Assembly: GCF_000003605.2 (NCBI RefSeq)
Contig: NW_003122908.1
Coordinates: forward strand, 202,691 to 266,690
Length of the DNA stretch: 64,000 nucleotides
Direction: 5' to 3'
DNA from: Saccoglossus kowalevskii
Lineage: Eukaryota; Hemichordata; Enteropneusta; Harrimaniidae
The number at the start of each line of letters is the position of its first letter. Positions within the stretch are counted from its first letter, which is position 1. A program made the translations under genes and the position numbers. Positions 4,210-63,130 of the stretch are shown here, in pieces. The notes under the pieces are model-generated. The model was not told the origin of the DNA and did not search any database. It saw only the letters and a program-made list of their open reading frames with translations.

Positions 4210-5456
4210 TACTTTTTAGATACATTATATATAAAATATGTTTTTGAAATGCAGTTGGTCACCATGAAAACACAAGAGCAAAATGACTTGATTTCCAAGA
4301 ACACAGGGTGTTTGCATCAGACTTTGACAATACGCTATTATTTTACTTCTTCTTCAAAAATGCTACTCCAATTGCTTTCAATGATTCTTTGATACCCTAC
4401 CCAAACTTTAATTGTTTTGAGCCACAGACTCAATGTGAATCATGACTCCACTGGCCAAGATTCATCTACTAATGAATGCGAATTTTAGTAAATTTGGTTA
4501 AGATTCGTGGGAGCTTGTTTCCAACCGGGCTTGGTTGACACCAGCAATAGAAAGATGATCAAGCAGCCCTGTCACGTAGTCTCAAACTGAATATGCTCTC
4601 TCTGGAAAAATGCACTATATGTCAGAATGGACACTTGCAAATTAAACAGGAGAGACAACAGTGACATTCAATGTATGAAACAAAAATATATTTAAAAAAA
4701 ACAACACTTAAGTAGAATGTAATCAAAGCCAAGGTTATTTATTTACCCATTTTTTATTGCAAGACTTTGCTTTGCTGAAACAGCAGAGCTATTTGGACCA
4801 TCATGTAAATAAGATAGTTCATGTACCAAGGTCGCAATTGAATACAGGATTGTTGTATAGATAGTAAAAATGGATTGTAATGTCCTTCAAGACATAAATG
4901 CAAATTTCAATGAAATGGGTATGCTTGAAAAACAAATTGAAAATCCTTGGTTCACGAATAATCCTTGCTGTGTTCAAGAATTACATTCTAAAAACGTTAG
5001 CTAAATATGTGTTGTTCATGTTTTTATTTTTGCATTATCTTTGTTTGTTTTACATAATTAATGAATAAGGCCTTACAAGAAATATGCACATACTGTTAGT
5101 TGGATACAGTCTTGGAAGGGTCTCGTATTGTTAACTTTCAACAAACAAACAAACAATCAGTACATTTATTCTTGTAGCTGTTAGACCACTTAAAAATTTG
5201 CTACAGTCACTTTGACATAAGTGCTGTGTATGCAAATTAGCTGTTATCCTTTTTTATCATTTTGTGCGAGTCTTGCAAATGTTTTGAAATAGTCACACTT
5301 TGTTGTCAATATGTCACTTAAACTTACTGGGTTGATGTCATTTGTTATCATAAATAGAACAACATCTAGTAAATGCTTGGTATGATCTTTTTCCCCCCCT
5401 TGATTTCCCCCTTCTGTTTTATTATTCATCATAAATAATTGTTTCTTTCTTAACAG

Positions 5457-7324: not shown

Positions 7325-8905
7325 CATTCAACAGGTGGTTATGTCAATTTCTGACATAAAAAAAATAATTCAGCAGGTGAATGTCAATTTCTGGCAAACA
7401 TTTCGTTCATCAGGTGATTGTGTCAATTTGTGACATAAAAGTTTCATTCAACAGATGGCTATTTCAAATTTTGACAAAAGAATAATTCAACAGGTGGCTA
7501 TGCCATTCAATAAGCCATTTTCCGCAAGTTGCAAGATCGTTGGACGATGAAACGCCAAATTTACGGAGAAAGTCTTCGATTTAGCGCCATTTTGAATCAA
7601 AACTTGACCTTTATCACATGANNNNNNNNNNNNNNNNNNNNNNNNNNNNNNNNNNNNNNNNNNNNNNNNNNNNNNNNNNNNNNNNNNNNNNNNNNNNNNN
7701 NNNNNNNNNNNNNNNNNNNNNNNNNNNNNNNNNNNNNNNNNNNNNNNNNNNNNNNNNNNNNNNNNNNNNNNNNNNNNNNNNNNNNNNNNNNNNNNNNNNN
7801 NNNNNNNNNNNNNNNNNNNNNNNNNNNNNNNNNNNNNNNNNNNNNNNNNNNNNNNNNNNNNNNNNNNNNNNNNNNNNNNNNNNNNNNNNNNNNNNNNNNN
7901 NNNNNNNNNNNNNNNNNNNNNNNNNNNNNNNNNNNNNNNNNNNNNNNNNNNNNNNNNNNNNNNNNNNNNNNNNNNNNNNNNNNNNNNNNNNNNNNNNNNN
8001 NNNNNNNNNNNNNNNNNNNNNNNNNNNNNNNNNNNNNNNNNNNNNNNNNNNNNNNNNNNNNNNNNNNNNNNNNNNNNNNNNNNNNNNNNNNNNNNNNNNN
8101 NNNNNNNNNNNNNNNNNNNNNNNNNNNNNNNNNNNNNNNNNNNNNNNNNNNNNNNNNNNNNNNNNNNNNNNNNNNNNNNNNNNNNNNNNNNNNNNNNNNN
8201 NNNNNNNNNNNNNNNNNNNNNNNNNNNNNNNNNNNNNNNNNNNNNNNNNNNNNNNNNNNNNNNNNNNNNNNNNNNNNNNNNNNNNNNNNNNNNNNNNNNN
8301 NNNNNNNNNNNNNNNNNNNNNNNNNNNNNNNNNNNNNNNNNNNNNNNNNNNNNNNNNNNNNNNNNNNNNNNNNNNNNNNNNNNNNNNNNNNNNNNNNNNN
8401 NNNNNNNNNNNNNNNNNNNNNNNNNNNNNNNNNNNNNNNNNNNNNNNNNNNNNNNNNNNNNNNNNNNNNNNNNNNNNNNNNNNNNNNNNNNNNNNNNNNN
8501 NNNNNNNNNNNNNNNNNNNNNNNNNNNNNNNNNNNNNNNNNNNNNNNNNNNNNNNNNNNNNNNNNNNNNNNNNNNNNNNNNNNNNNNNNNNNNNNNNNNN
8601 NNNNNNNNNNNNNNNNNNNNAAAATTCTGACATCAAATTCATTCAATAGGTGGTTATGTCAAATTCTGACATCAAATTCATTCAATAGGTGGTTATGTCA
8701 AATTCTGATATCAAAGATTAATTCAACAGGTGTTATGTCAGTCAATTTCTGATATAAAATTCATTCAACAGGTGGTTAGGTAAAAATTCTTTGATGAAAG
8801 TTTCATTCAACAGGTGGTCATGTCAAATTTTTACATATAATAATTTAACAAGCGATTATGTCAAATTTTGATATAAAAAATAATTCAACAGGCAATCATG
8901 TCAGA
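7325..8905. repeat. Minisatellite of about 39 bp interrupted by an assembly gap
   Basis: To the left of the gap (7325-7515) and to the right (8621-8905) the same unit recurs, built on ATTCAACAGGTGGTTATGTC followed by AAATTCTGACATAAAATTC. Right after the gap two units are nearly identical and exactly 39 bp apart (8622-8660 and 8661-8699). Outer units are more diverged and differ in length. Each unit contains a small palindrome, ATGTCA-N5-TGACAT. Because the array flanks the gap on both sides, the missing sequence is most simply more of the same array. Confidence 0.88.
7622..8620. other. Assembly gap, 999 N
   Basis: Run of undetermined bases inside an MPDU1 intron and inside a tandem array. 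Any apparent open frame through it is an artefact. Confidence 1.
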
Positions 8906-28449: not shown

Positions 28450-28583
28450 TTAAAGGACGGCAGTCGTCGTGCCGCGTCCTGTTCGATATGGGACTCATAG
28501 CGACGTATACAACGCGTGTAAAAATACATTGTTTATTTACATGAAATTCAAACACGCGCTGCGCGACGACCACCGCGCTTTAC
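28450..28583 (-). mobile_element. MITE-2 copy (best preserved)
   Basis: Begins TTAAAGGACGGCAGTCGTCG and ends GCGACGACCACCGCGCTTTA. The inverted ends contain GTCGTCG and agree over about 20 bp. The core has GACTCATAGCGACG and ACAACGCGTGTAAAAATACA. It lies 40 bp upstream (in gene direction) of exon 3, so it overlaps the likely branch-point zone flank of that intron. Confidence 0.8.
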
Positions 28584-37863: not shown

Positions 37864-38031
37864 TTAAAGCGGGCGACTGAGTCGTTACCTGCGCATGCGT
37901 CAGATGGCCATAGTGTGTCATTGTTTACAAACAAGCGTCTACCAATGAGCCTTTGCGTTTTAGCGTGTGTTGTTATCGTCGCTTGGGACTCAATTCCCAC
38001 GCGTGCGCAGGTGACGACCCTCCCGCTTTAA
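37864..38031 (+). mobile_element. MITE-1 copy D
   Basis: TTAAAGCGGGCGACTGAGTC at the left, GACCCTCCCGCTTTAA at the right, TTAA at both edges. It abuts the MITE-2-related block on its right and forms one end of the block duplicated at 51.03-51.53 kb. Confidence 0.92.
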
Positions 38032-38187: not shown

Positions 38188-38596
38188 TTTCTACGACCTC
38201 GTTCACGGGTAGAATGTTGGTGAATTCTGACTCAATCTCATATGCAGGATATGCGCCTCCAATAGGGAAGCGCTCAGCCTCGTTCATATACTCCCATTTC
38301 CCCACATTATTAAAAGGGGGTTCTTTAATCGGTGGACCCGGATGAAGATTAATTTCAGGCGCCTCCTCTGGCCAATGTTCTTCTATGTATGTCTCGTAAT
38401 CGTCTACGCCCGTTTCTTCTAACTGGTCGTTTTCAAAAACACTTTCTTCCGACACTTCCTGCTCCTGCATTGCTTTCTCGACATATTCCAGGGCATCTAA
38501 CAATGCCTTTTGTTTTTCTAATTGTTTGTAATTAGCGTTGGCTTGGACAGAAAGTCCGACCGCCAGCAAAATTCCCAGCAACAACGTTGACGTCAT
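38188..38596 (-). CDS. Acidic secreted protein, coding exon 1 with signal peptide
   Basis: The start codon at 38596 opens MTSTLLLGILLAVGLSVQANA-type sequence: a short hydrophobic core ending in small residues, a clear signal peptide with likely cleavage after ANA (residue 21). Then follow a helical charged stretch (NYKQLEKQKALLDALEYVEK), an acidic stretch, a proline-containing linker (INLHPGPPIKEPPFNNVG) and KWEYMNEAERFPIGGAYPAY. The exon ends in phase 1 before GTGAGT. Exons at 35204, 28410 and 25355 continue the frame; total coding length is 1476 bases, 491 residues. No known family is recognised. A secreted, Cys-free, Glu/Asp-rich, probably calcium-binding or matrix/granule protein is the cautious reading. 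Confidence 0.87.
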
Positions 38597-38640: not shown

Positions 38641-40435
38641 AAAACAAAAAAAAAACGTTAGGCGTGTTACTATTTGGGTTGTGTTGGACTATGCGAACAT
38701 GCCTCTAACGGACGGTGCTTGATGTTCACGGTAAACCTAAATAAAGCAAAGACAGTCAGATTGCCATCATGTCTATTTGAACTCGTTGTCGGCATGGATA
38801 AAAGGGGTAATGTCGTCTACTATAAAAGTGCGCCACTGAAACAAACCAATCATGAAATATATTGATTGATTGAGAACAAAGTTTAATCTCTATTTTTTCA
38901 CATACGTCTATACTACCCAAATCGAAAGAGATGCATAGTAAGAAACGCATGCGTAGACGGACAAAATCCCGGCATTCAATCTGGGGTCGTTTTATGCGGG
39001 GATTCTTAGCATCCGTATACATATGACTAAGATCTATTTCGGTGTGTTGTCTGAACTTTCCAGTACGATACGAACAAGGTAATCTTCAGACACCCACAAA
39101 CATTATGAAGATGCCCGATACATATTTAATGACGTCACGTTAGACCGTGCCCTTGACAACCGCCACGGTAGAAAAGCCGATATAATAAATATGAAGCTCT
39201 AACATTCGAGTTGATCGGAACAGCATCGTGTATGACGTCATACGACACTCAGTTTGACCCCCCGTGTCAGAATCGTGCAGAAAGTATGAGTACGGTCTCC
39301 CGCCCAGAATAGTGTAAGCACTCATTCTATTATTATTACGTAATGTAAGGTACATATGAGAAGAATATTGAGAGTTGACGAAATAATTACACCCGGCTAC
39401 GTAATGAAACTGTATTGTGTACGATTTATAACGAGTCTAATTAGATTGGAATCAAATCAGCTGCGCCGGACTGATGTACCCGTGCGTGCTACGTAACAAG
39501 GCGAGTACATAAAGGTTGATTAACTACATCTGCAATCGAGGGCTGTATGTACCATCAATTAATGTCTAGAGATGTTCTTTAGTCATTATTGTCATTTGTA
39601 TAGTAACGATATATTTAAATGGAATTAGAACGAGGATATATTCTCCAGAAAGTGCACATACTGGGATGATTTCATTGTAGTTGTATTAACTGCCGATCCA
39701 CCGCCACCCGTTAAACACATTTTAGTACAACTGGTTATATTCACCGTACTAAGTTATCCGTTTTGTAAAGGGGCGTCGGCGCTGCATTGCACTACGTTAC
39801 GCTCCGTTTGTGTTCTATGGTACATGTACATTCTGTGACTTCTTTCTTGTGCACTCACATCGCTACAATCTCCACTGGCCAGCACCAGCAGTACGTCGCA
39901 TCCTCCGTAATAACATTCAGAGCTGGTCGGTAAGGCTTACTCTTGAAACCTTAATCTTTCACGTCAATTGCAGGATTCGTGCCGCATAGATGACTATTGA
40001 AGTTTGTCATACGACAAAGAACGTCGGGCGGCTTGTTTTAATCTAACGATTGTCGTAACAAAACTGATGTCGCAATTTAAAACGAGGCTTTTGAAACCCC
40101 TTGATATAGGGCCACACTCGAGGCATACACGTGTTGCACTCAGTAATACAAATCCTCGTTATCAGACCAGATCATCCGAAATTAGCTCGAAGATATAATG
40201 TCGGGTTTTGTATCTTACTTCCTAGAACTGCCAAGAATAAAACACGATGACACGATGTATGATTCGCCTCTTCTAAACGCAATAACACCGGTATTTAGTC
40301 ACCTTTCACAAAGTTCATTTAAATAATCAATTAGGTAAAACCGAAACACGTACATACACAAATCACGCCAAAAGCATGTATTGCGCCACAGGCGTATCAA
40401 TGCGCAAGGTGCGTATAGCGGAGACAGGTATGCGT

Positions 40436-40621
40436 AGCGGCATTTACACCAAAGTAGCACCATTCCGTTTGGCGCCACTGAGGGTATTTTAGAATAATGA
40501 TAAAATAATTCTTCAGACCGATAATAAAATAGCGGCATTTACACCAAAGTAGCACCATTCCGTTTGGCGCCACTGAGGGTATTTTAGAATAATGATAAAA
40601 TAATTCTTCAGACCGATAATA
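40436..40621. repeat. Exact tandem duplication, 95-bp unit
   Basis: The unit beginning AGCGGCATTTACACCAAAGT at 40436 repeats at 40531 with no differences that I can see through GACCGATAATA. Two copies only. It is either a very recent duplication or an assembly stutter. Confidence 0.93.
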
Positions 40622-48900: not shown

Positions 48901-51229
48901 GTAAATTGATTACACGGCGTCACGAATATGACCATTCCATTCAGAAGGAGGGGTGCTAGGATATGATTCAATCGGCAGGGAGTTGGACGCGATTCGCAAG
49001 GCTCTACCCGCAGTAATTATGTGAATATTTATTTCGTTTTAACAATTGATATATCAAGCAATTAATTGTAACGGTACACATTTCTACTCACAAATAATAA
49101 TGTTAGCATTTGGCTGTCGCTTTATGCGTTCACCTTCTTCTGCATCGGCTATAATAATTTCCACGCCGTGTTTTTAAAATTAACCCGTCAAACGTGGAGT
49201 ACTGCAACAGGGGACGCGCTTACATCCACACGCCCGACTCTACATCACAGCGGCTTCAAAGAGTGTATTAAGAAGGCCATTTTTACCTCTCCTCCCTCCC
49301 GAAAAGATAACAGTTGGTTCTATTTATTCACATTAATAACAATGACATCTTGGTTGAAACAAATATTCACAAATCACTGGCAGCGCAGAGGCGTACTAGT
49401 ACGTCGTAGAACACGCCAACGTTCGTGCACCCGACTTGGTGCCCCTGGCTTATATATACAGTGTTAGTTTAATAAATATGTATATTAATCATTATCCAAC
49501 GTCAATCACTTTTTTTTATTAATCAGATAAAGCGATACAATCTGATTGATACAATTACGCTTTTTGTCCCTGTTTATAATTTACTTTTAATGTTTATTCA
49601 TGACGCAACGCACCTGACAGCCATTATTATTTGTCCTAAGCACATAAACGTTTTTATATAAACCACAATTTTTAATTGAAGAAAATGTCATGTTCGTCCA
49701 ACTTTCATTATTATGGACCCAGAATACTGAGAATAAAAACAAACGCGCCACCGGGATTTTTTTTCGAGTCCGAAATGTCATAAAAAATGGCATTTTTTAC
49801 ACACTGGATTCTATAATGGTGAAATTATTGCTTCATTTATGATAATTAATACGAATTCCAATATTGTTTTTAAAACAATGATATACAATTTAGTGAGTTT
49901 CCAGTATGCAATTGAAAGTCCTCTCCAACAATGCATTGCATATATGCGCAGTAACTTGCTCAGTGGTGCAAAATTCGAATTCGGCTCAAATTCTTATAGT
50001 ATTCAATTAAAAATCAATTCCCCAGAATCTCTTCTAAAGCGATACATAGTTTCGTCTGCTATTTTATGCCGTCAATTGTAGAAAACAAAACACGCGAGCA
50101 GTGTTTTCAACTCATGAACATTTTTCATAAACTTAGTAATCAAGTTTACGCATATTTTTTTTCGTTGGCACGAAAGCAAATATCATAAAATAATTTTTGG
50201 CCGTAAACCACCGTCAGCACATATTTCCAATTCTCTCAAAAAAGCCGTGACTAAATGGTCGCTACACACTATTGAAGGAAAATAAATTTTGATATAATTA
50301 AAATATATATTTTTTGCCGTCTATGAACTGTTAACGTTACATAAAAATGCAAAGTGTGATTACACCATTTGTTCACCGTAGAAATCTCCAAACTGTCCTA
50401 TCTACCAACATTTTAACACAAGTAACAAATTTGATTTTACCAGGTATAATAGAATTAAATACGAAAAAAGTCACACAAGGTTACGTAATGTTATTTTATT
50501 TATAATTCACGACTCGGAAGAACCACGTATTAAACACAAACGAAAAAAACAACGATTTAGCAGTAACGGTAAAATACTTTCCATTAATTATTTTATGCCG
50601 ACACGGTATACAAGACGCTATGAGCATTGTTTTATTCCATATCGTATCCTTAGTTTCCCAATTTACTAATACGACCCTTTAAACGAAATTACGGAAAATC
50701 AATAAACAGATAACTTGCATATTCGCATTATTGTGTAAGTTTGAGCTGTGGTTATTTTTAATTTTTAATTTCGATTAGGTCACAATCTCTTGCGATATGT
50801 TTCCAGTGTTCCAATTTTGTTAAACCTAAAGTGTTGAAGTACATGACAGTTATTTGCAACATTTTATATTGGAGAATGTTTTGTTTTTTTCAGTTTTGGC
50901 CAATTAGTGATATTAGTAAATATCTATTTAAAAAACAGACCAATCGTACGCAGACGACGAAGATTCTGATTGATTTAGCCGCCATCGTTTTATACAGCGT
51001 ACCCCGGGATTTGTTCCACGCTAAGTTTAAAGCGCCTGAAATTAATCTTCATCCTGGTCCACCGATTAAAGAACCCCCTTTTAATAATGTGGGGATATGG
51101 GAATATATGAACGAGGCTGAGCGCTTCCCTATTGGAGGCGCATATCCTGCATATGAGAGTGAGTCAGAATTTACCAACATTTTACCCGTGGACGAGGTCG
51201 TAGAAAGTGAGTATATATTTAATTATTGC

Positions 51230-51358
51230 ACACATCCATCGCTCCGCGTCCCGTTAGATATAATATGGGACCCATAGTGACCTATGAAACACGAGTAAAA
51301 TACATTGTTTCCACGACATGCGCTTAGCGACGACTGTGTCACTTCAGGATAGCAGCCT
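51230..51358 (-). mobile_element. MITE-2-related block, copy inside the captured fragment
   Basis: Reverse complement of the block at 38036-38168 with only a few substitutions (for example CTGAGCG versus CTTAGCG). It moved as part of the larger duplicated unit. Confidence 0.75.
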
Positions 51359-51362
51359 ACTC

Positions 51363-51527
51363 TTAAAGCGGGAGGGTCGTCACCTGCGTACGCGCGGGAA
51401 TTGAGTCCTAAGCGACGACAACAACACACGCTAAAAATGCAAAGGCCCATGGATAGACGCTTGTTTGTAAACAATGACGTTCTATGGCCATCTGACGCAT
51501 GCGCAGGTGACGACTCCCCCGCTTTAA
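51363..51527 (-). mobile_element. MITE-1 copy E
   Basis: TTAAAGCGGGAGGGTCGTCA at the left, CGACTCCCCCGCTTTAA at the right. It is the duplicate of copy D and marks the right end of the captured unit. Its outer terminus is closer to the family consensus than that of copy D (which reads GACTCAGTCGCCCGC there). Confidence 0.92.
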
Positions 51528-52110: not shown

Positions 52111-52246
52111 CTCGGGGGAGTAGTTACCTGCGCGTGCGTCAGATGGCCATAGCGTGTCATTGTTTAAAAACAAGCGTCTACCCATGAGCCTTTGCATTTT
52201 AGCGTGTGTTGTTATCGTCGCTTGGGACTCAATTCTCGCGCTTTAA
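52111..52246 (+). mobile_element. MITE-1 copy F (truncated)
   Basis: CTCGGGGGAGTAGTTACCTG at the left without a preceding TTAA, the full core, then GGGACTCAATTCTCGCGCTTTAA. About 25 bases of the right inverted repeat (the GTGCGCAGGTGACGACCC part) are missing, so this copy has lost one subterminal arm. Confidence 0.85.
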
Positions 52247-61976: not shown

Positions 61977-63130
61977 CGAGGGGGTGATCAATAAGTTCTC
62001 GGCCTCACCATGAAACAAGGGGCGGAACCCCTATTCTGGGGTATAATTTTATACTATAATGTCACTCCCTCTAGAAATGCAAATTTAGGTATTCATTAAT
62101 TAGCACATGGTGCACATCAGCAGGTGAGACGAAAATCACAAAACGGGTCAGACAGAAGCTCGTGCTGTGATCAAATGAAGGGGTGACTCCCAAAGAAATC
62201 CATGAAGACATAGTCGCGACGATTGGTGAGGACTCCCCTTCTTATTCCACTGTAAAGAAGAGGGTTGCTAACTTTAAGCGAGGCAAGGAGAGCACGAAAG
62301 ATGACCCAAGGTCTGGACGCCCAAGTTCTGCCACCACGGGCTGGTTGAGGCCATCCATCGCATGGTAATGAATGACAGACGTGTCACTATCCGACATATC
62401 AGGCATTCACTGGGCATTAGTTATGGCGCAGTTCACAACGTTTTGTCTAACATCTTTGGGATGAGCAAGCTGTCTGCAAGGTTGGTTCCCCGAATGTTGA
62501 ATCCACATCAAAAGTTCAACAGGTTGGAAGTTTCAAGGACGCCTTTGGTTTCCAGTCAAATCCTGGCAACTTCCTCAAGAGATCTGTGACCAAAGATGAG
62601 ACATGGGTTCACCACTTTGATCCAGAATCAAAAGAGCAGAGTAAACAATATACACACAAGAGTTCACATCCGCCAAAGAAGTTCAAGCGAGTTCAGTCGG
62701 CAAGGTGATGGCCTCTGTGTTCGGGGACAGCTAAGGAGTCATCATGATTGACTACTTGCAAAAAGGTCAAACAATCAATGGACAGTATTATGCTTCAGAA
62801 CTGCGACAGTTAAGAGCAGCAATCAAAGAGAAAATGAGAGGAAAGCTTCTAGCTGGTGTGTTGTTGCTCCAGGACAATGCACAGCACAGGTGGCTGTGGC
62901 AGCAGCAACCGAATGTGACTTTGAACTCTTACCTCACCCTTCCTACTCACCTGACCTGGCACCGTCGGATTTTTACCTGTTTCCTAAACTTTGTCCCACT
63001 TGCGTGGTCACCGTTTTGAGACTGACTGATGATGACGTCATCCAAGCTGTTTAGGCCTATCTAAAGGATCAAGATGAAACCTTCCTTCTTCAGGCACGGA
63101 TTAGAAAAACTGGAACTTATATGATGAAAG
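61977..63130 (+). pseudogene. Decayed mariner element (D,D34D transposase)
   Basis: The left end CGAGGGGGTGATCAATAAGT follows TA and matches the form of mariner termini. The transposase is recognisable in three frames: LTPKEIHEDIVATIG-type start and STVKKRVANFKRGKESTKDD with DPRSGRPSS (62183 on), VMNDRRVTIRHIRHSLGISY (62360 on), DETWVHHFDPESK with the first catalytic Asp at 62595, MIDYLQKGQTINGQYYASEL, LLLQDNA with the second Asp at 62873, and YSPDLAPSDFYLF with the third Asp at 62968. The last two Asp are 95 bases apart instead of 105, a 10-base deletion. Other frameshifts lie near 62175, 62350 and 62585, and a stop near 63050. The right terminal repeat was not found. It cannot encode an active enzyme. 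Confidence 0.93.

Follow-up and report, generated by a model that had tools for sequence, protein, structure and literature searches.

Shuffling of gene pieces by break repair at resident elements is already known from animal genomes, and the locus described here would be a further instance. In the sections of the survey by Tan et al. (2021; PMC8277862) used here, 370 Pack-TIRs are reported from 100 animal genomes, and those present as a single copy are argued to come mostly from gap filling. According to the same sections, the parent lies less than 15 kb away in 160 out of 281 cases, microhomology is found at a breakpoint in 190 out of 281 (median 2 bp), and breakpoints are skewed to the interior of the element, terminal ones being expected for breaks made by excision. 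Its main text names neither piggyBac nor Kolobok.

Kolobok MITEs are described in the part of PMC9587614 used here as having a TTAA duplication and 5′-RR...YY-3′ termini, and the part of PMC2872659 used gives CC[C/T]T as the terminal motif of piggyBac, adjoining TTAA. Among the closest described counterparts of the family at issue here, MITE-1, are the Xenopus T2-MITE/XKol (PMC6004289) and KolobokP (PMC9587614), which in the available portions of both sources share with it the TTAA duplication and the AG terminus. The same portion of PMC6004289 gives left ends of XKol A1 that begin with AGCG, as does MITE-1.

The window, i.e., the whole stretch of 64,000 nucleotides analysed here from Saccoglossus kowalevskii (contig NW_003122908.1, positions 202,691 to 266,690), contains a target block, T (window 51032-51527, + strand), which is a copy of a source, S (38362-37864, - strand). 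T is most likely a Pack-TIR made by repair and not a mobilised unit. Similar to the Pack-TIRs presented in the sections of PMC8277862 used here, T holds non-TE sequence between parts of a TIR element (a full MITE-1 on the right and TTAAAGCG only on the left, which rests on reading these 8 bp as MITE). It is also a single copy with a parent at less than 15 kb (two places about 13 kb apart, among the best 40 of 1797 DNA candidates) and has a short microhomology (GCG, 3 bp) at its breakpoint. Unlike the Pack-TIRs of these sections, T has a template that adjoins another MITE-1 copy, so that the second junction consists of family homology, its left part is the terminal 8 bp alone, with a terminal and not an internal breakpoint, and the element involved, a MITE of 165 bp, has TTAA sites. 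The locus ties a miniature element to the duplication of host coding sequence, and its junctions help to separate transposition from break repair. No report of the T/S locus was found in the literature searched, and no wider claim is made.

Extent, copy number and coding potential of the block

In the pairwise alignment within the window, T and S are 94% identical over 500 columns, in inverted orientation and about 13 kb apart. The flanks outside both edges of T and S are unrelated and the alignment ends sharply (Table 1). The extent of the block, its edges, its two copies and the 3-bp overlap at its left junction are direct observations. The sequence-only reading had described a copied block with a TTAA-AGCG edge on the left and a true MITE-1 end on the right, in which 175 bp of coding exon, its donor and intron were copied in inverted orientation over about 13 kb, and all of this is borne out. 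Similarity reaching beyond either TTAA, which it named as evidence that would speak against it, was found at neither edge. It had also counted two MITEs in the block, whereas a single one is certainly MITE-1 (51363-51527) and the other segment, at 51244-51310 in T and present in the intron of S as well, derives from a different dispersed repeat. This short dispersed repeat, of which the copied intron holds a fragment, also occurs at window 28471-28582 and 1922-2032.

Table 1. Features of T, of S and of the neighbouring MITE-1, in window positions
Feature	Position	Strand	Remarks
Left edge TTAAAGCG	51027..51034	+	Putative leftover left terminus of a resident MITE-1; overlaps the copied exon by GCG (3 bp)
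Copied coding-exon fragment, 175 bp	51032..51206	+	Frame open; aligned with S 38362-38188
Copied donor (GTGAGT) and intron	51207..51362	+	Holds the repeat fragment 51244-51310
T MITE-1, 165 bp, TTAA-AGCG...CGCT-TTAA	51363..51527	+	Left boundary common to S
S exon, ATG to donor	38188..38596	-	136 full codons and one base; frame unbroken
MITE-1 in the S intron, putative homologous template	37864..38031	-	
Neighbouring damaged MITE-1 (W52)	52113..52246	-	Exact form once in the genome

The predicted product of the S exon has a signal-like start and an acidic middle (signal and donor were called by eye), and the acidic exons gave no Pfam match over the curated cut-off. Between T and S there are 7 substitutions in the 175 columns of the exon part and 5 in the 156 columns of the intron part. 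Comparison of the translations indicates that the seven changes in the T exon lead to three amino-acid changes. The claim that the copied frame is still open holds: it is open for 88 codons upstream of the junction (window 50762-51206), a length reached by 0.84% of random window codons. If the count starts at the acceptor-like TTTTTTTCAG near 50893, 44 open codons are left and, because 8% of random codons reach such a run, chance is a fair explanation. The segment at 50762-51206 could possibly be a chimeric exon, or be due to chance.

A search of the 572-Mb assembly with the exon and intron DNA gave 1797 candidates, and among the best 40, which were scored, T and S were the only places found; in the DNA search with the block, the remaining matches were MITE-1. 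A protein query of 137 codons, the last of which is split by the donor, gave two matches in the assembly, S over 1-137 and T over 76-137 at 90% identity, and a single complete copy of the full S exon was found in the genome. The idea that the exon piece belongs to a repeated element was rejected, since it occurs in two places only (best 40 of the 1797 DNA candidates, and protein search). T is a single fragment, with S as its likely source. The target flanks lie in one place in the assembly, 24 weaker matches covering query 268-407 alone, which corresponds to another repeat, and a search of the same assembly with these flanks found no empty site for T. Similarly, a joined-flank search for empty sites of other MITE-1 copies found none, one match being a tandem MITE pair.

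MITE-1 and the left junction

MITE-1 is 165 bp long, and almost every one of 59 full-length copies carries TTAA at each end, many of these copies having been chosen by the TTAA motif itself. Its ends, TTAA/AG...CT/TTAA, fit the 5′-RR...YY-3′ termini of Kolobok elements, the duplication being deduced from occupied sites. Assignment to piggyBac by terminus was rejected, as the end is AGCGGG and not CC[C/T]T. A putative autonomous Kolobok-type partner of MITE-1 would bear AGCGGGAGGG ends. The PF13843 profile finds 37 piggyBac-type matches in the genome. In the window, open frames are present at 62305-63054; for the first there is a weak match of Tc1/mariner type (PF01498, below the cut-off) and for the second no Pfam match.

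The right edge of the similarity between T and S, CGCTTTAA, is a true MITE-1 end. At the left edge, the last shared bases are GCGCCTG, the target reading TTTAAA/GCGCCTG and the source GAGGAG/GCGCCTG. Because S reads GAGGAGGCGCCTG at the exon edge, without TTAA and without an A before GCG, the TTAAA of the left edge of T does not come from S. MITE-1 starts with TTAAAGCGGGAGGG, and hence the left edge of T can be read as the terminus TTAAAGCG and the exon GCGCCTG overlapping by GCG. Accordingly, the junction TTAAA[GCG]CCTG fits a MITE end, TTAAAGCGG, followed by exon, GAGGCGCCTG, with a 3-bp overlap. An overlap of at least 3 bp was seen in 4.2% of random junctions simulated between the MITE end and the S locus.

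In the window, TTAAAGCG occurs 11 times, compared with 1.9 expected, and this number was reached in 0 of 100 shuffles. By comparing their positions with those of the MITEs, nine of the sites were assigned to MITE-1 ends and the other two to the end of a damaged MITE-1 (52239-52246) and to the left edge of T. The five bases that the exon does not explain, TTAAA, are found at 0.33% of window positions and, consequently, the chance origin of the left junction that the sequence-only reading had allowed for is unlikely though possible. From these motif counts, TTAA-AGCG at the left edge is probably not a coincidence.

Divergence of the MITEs of T and S

If the block had been moved or copied whole, its MITE should match the S MITE as closely as the exon and intron do. 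In a family alignment of 43 MITE-1 members (6 from the window and 37 from elsewhere), the MITEs of T and S differ at 13 of 164 sites. Exon and intron together differ at 12 of 331, from which 5.9 MITE differences would be expected after a single copying event (p 0.049 by Fisher's test and 0.040 by a binomial test, the latter falling to 0.023 when 14 changes from the consensus are used). The pairwise alignment counts 17 substitutions in 164 plus 5 gap columns (p 0.004), but this number is raised locally by a 4-bp insertion in S; the CpG-free pairwise count, in which the MITE boundary was misplaced by 5 bp, gives p 0.019. The S MITE carries this 4-bp insertion, which shifts its right end, and a 1-bp deletion.

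Random pairs among the 37 genome copies differ on average at 11.5 sites (5-95% 8-16), and 0.75% of the 666 pairs show at most 6 differences. Relative to the consensus, T has 9 substitutions and S has 5, none of which is shared; one MITE site is altered in both but to different bases, and no S-specific base was seen in the MITE of T. When the distances of the 42 other members (S included) to T were compared with that of S, 8 were closer, 10 tied and the remaining 23 further, with the reservation that the 37 genome copies are the best matches to the MITE of T, which biases distances to T low. A first MITE tree, built with 30-bp flanks, grouped T and S owing to their shared flank; both the flanks and the damaged copy were left out of the second tree and of the AU test. 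The sister relation of T and S was not rejected by the AU test (p 0.276), in a family that is star-like and with sequences that are short.

The excess divergence between the two MITEs lends modest support to a separate origin, and the MITE of T was likely already resident at the target, its body probably not coming from the S MITE. It is worth noting that the absence of shared changes says little if the S MITE stood near the consensus at the time of copying, and that a separate origin could be mimicked by later gene conversion of either MITE.

Proposed break repair at a resident MITE-1 and its alternatives

With a probability of about 0.6, T is a single-copy MITE-associated duplication that arose through break repair of a resident MITE-1, with the S MITE as template. 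The break itself, the way it was repaired and the succession of steps are inferred, and may be set out as follows. The MITE-1 at 51.36-51.53 kb would have stood first, between TTAA duplications, and would have been broken near its left end. The right part of the broken element may then have paired with the homologous inverted MITE-1 in the S intron, about 13 kb off, and synthesis would have run leftwards through the TTAA of the S MITE, the intron and the splice donor before entering the exon for 175 bp. Finally, the GCG microhomology would have linked the new end to TTAAAGCG, the terminus that remained of the resident element, the route being either synthesis-dependent annealing or fork template switching. 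If a MITE was resident, other alleles or relatives are predicted to carry an unaltered MITE-1 between the same two TTAA. The more general suggestion of the earlier reading, a MITE-associated duplication of host coding sequence, is supported.

Because the left breakpoint is terminal, as the sections of PMC8277862 used here expect of breaks made by excision, a cut by a transposase is a possible source of the break. A bolder version, to which we would give little credence, is that recurrent cuts or half-cuts by a TTAA-specific transposase at the left end of MITE-1 leave TTAA-AGCG, and that inverted neighbours serve as templates, so that the members of a MITE-1 pair would copy the host DNA to the left of each other while the element stays immobile. 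If true, this would amount to exon shuffling by cut and copy, which here would have brought an exon and its donor into frame with the 44 open codons ahead of them that start at the acceptor-like site, giving a possible chimeric exon.

The sequence-only reading had favoured a mobilisation of the whole block via a cryptic exon terminus. This would be an end bypass, with a TTAA-specific transposase acting on the true right MITE end and on a cryptic left end in the exon, moving the 0.5-kb block in one piece and generating the TTAA pair at its flanks. We regard it as unlikely, although both edges carry TTAA, the left terminus is of the AG type and the AU test leaves the sister relation of the two MITEs standing. 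End bypass is also named as a model in the sections of PMC8277862 used here, and the P element end bypass or transduction known to us through them resembles T in placing the element and flanking DNA between target duplications. Applied to T, however, it needs a usable cut site at the exon edge and predicts a MITE that travels with the exon. The exon edge of S has neither TTAA nor the A, the source copy remains in place, and neither the best 40 of 1797 DNA candidates nor the protein search revealed a further copy of the unit. In addition, the two MITEs are about as divergent as random pairs, more so than exon and intron (p 0.02-0.05), and have no derived change in common. End bypass could still hold if, for example, TTAA-A was supplied by the target.

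Distinctly unlikely, too, is a plain inverted duplication, the right edge of which fell in the MITE homology and the left edge by a coincidental TTAAA. With 545 sites, TTAA is frequent in the window, and a similar copy at another locus, L069, has a far edge without TTAA, but TTAAA would stand at a given position by chance in about 0.33% of cases and TTAAAGCG is confined in the window to MITE-1 ends and the left edge of T. That the 51-kb sequence is older and the 38-kb gene gained part of its exon from there is highly improbable since, although two copies provide no polarising outgroup, the 38-kb frame is unbroken from its signal-like start to the donor and the similarity at 51 kb starts at a MITE-like junction.

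The preferred reading, break repair at a resident MITE-1, can be compared with other loci of the family. The assembly contains 551 exact normal MITE-1 ends. From the 100 places listed of these, 20 neighbourhoods of up to 10 kb each (one of 5.5 kb) were sampled, namely the first 22 listed less two already taken. One of the 20, L069, shows a one-sided flank copy like that of T/S, in which an inverted MITE-1 pair (2438-2619 and 4879-5160, about 2.5 kb apart) has 109 bp of left flank in common (98% identity) but right flanks that give no alignment. The far edge of the L069 flank copy lacks TTAA, a further point against mobilisation as a unit. The parallel is suggestive at most, as the shared flank looks repetitive and one of the MITEs is interrupted by an N run. 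In a comparison of 147 flanks, 14 of which repeat places included twice, and from which five window loci were left out, true one-sided sharing was found for T/S and the L069 pair alone. The matches in L076, between one MITE and another, were excluded from flank sharing, and the L064 insert and the L059 MITE, which contain N runs, were left out of the judgement. L076 holds a tandem MITE-1 pair with a gap of about 5 bp (4687-5014), and in L074 about 0.8 kb of other DNA lies within a MITE and looks, by eye, like a nested element.

The damaged MITE-1 next to T (52113-52246) consists of TTAAAGCG fused via GCG to internal MITE sequence, with 24 bp missing. It forms an inverted pair with the MITE of T, 0.6 kb apart, and has the same TTAAA[GCG] join as T. 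Given that the exact damaged form was found once and exact normal ends 551 times, it resembles a repair scar more than a subfamily able to transpose. Likewise rejected was the idea of a shortened MITE-1 subfamily whose TTAAAGCGC end, as a working terminus, would account for the left edge of T: a mismatch-free search, which diverged copies would escape, detected this pattern once, at the same damaged neighbour.

Elsewhere in the window, two identical 92-bp direct repeats lie almost adjacent to each other at 40435-40621, and a diverged repeat array surrounds a 999-bp N run at 7325-8903.
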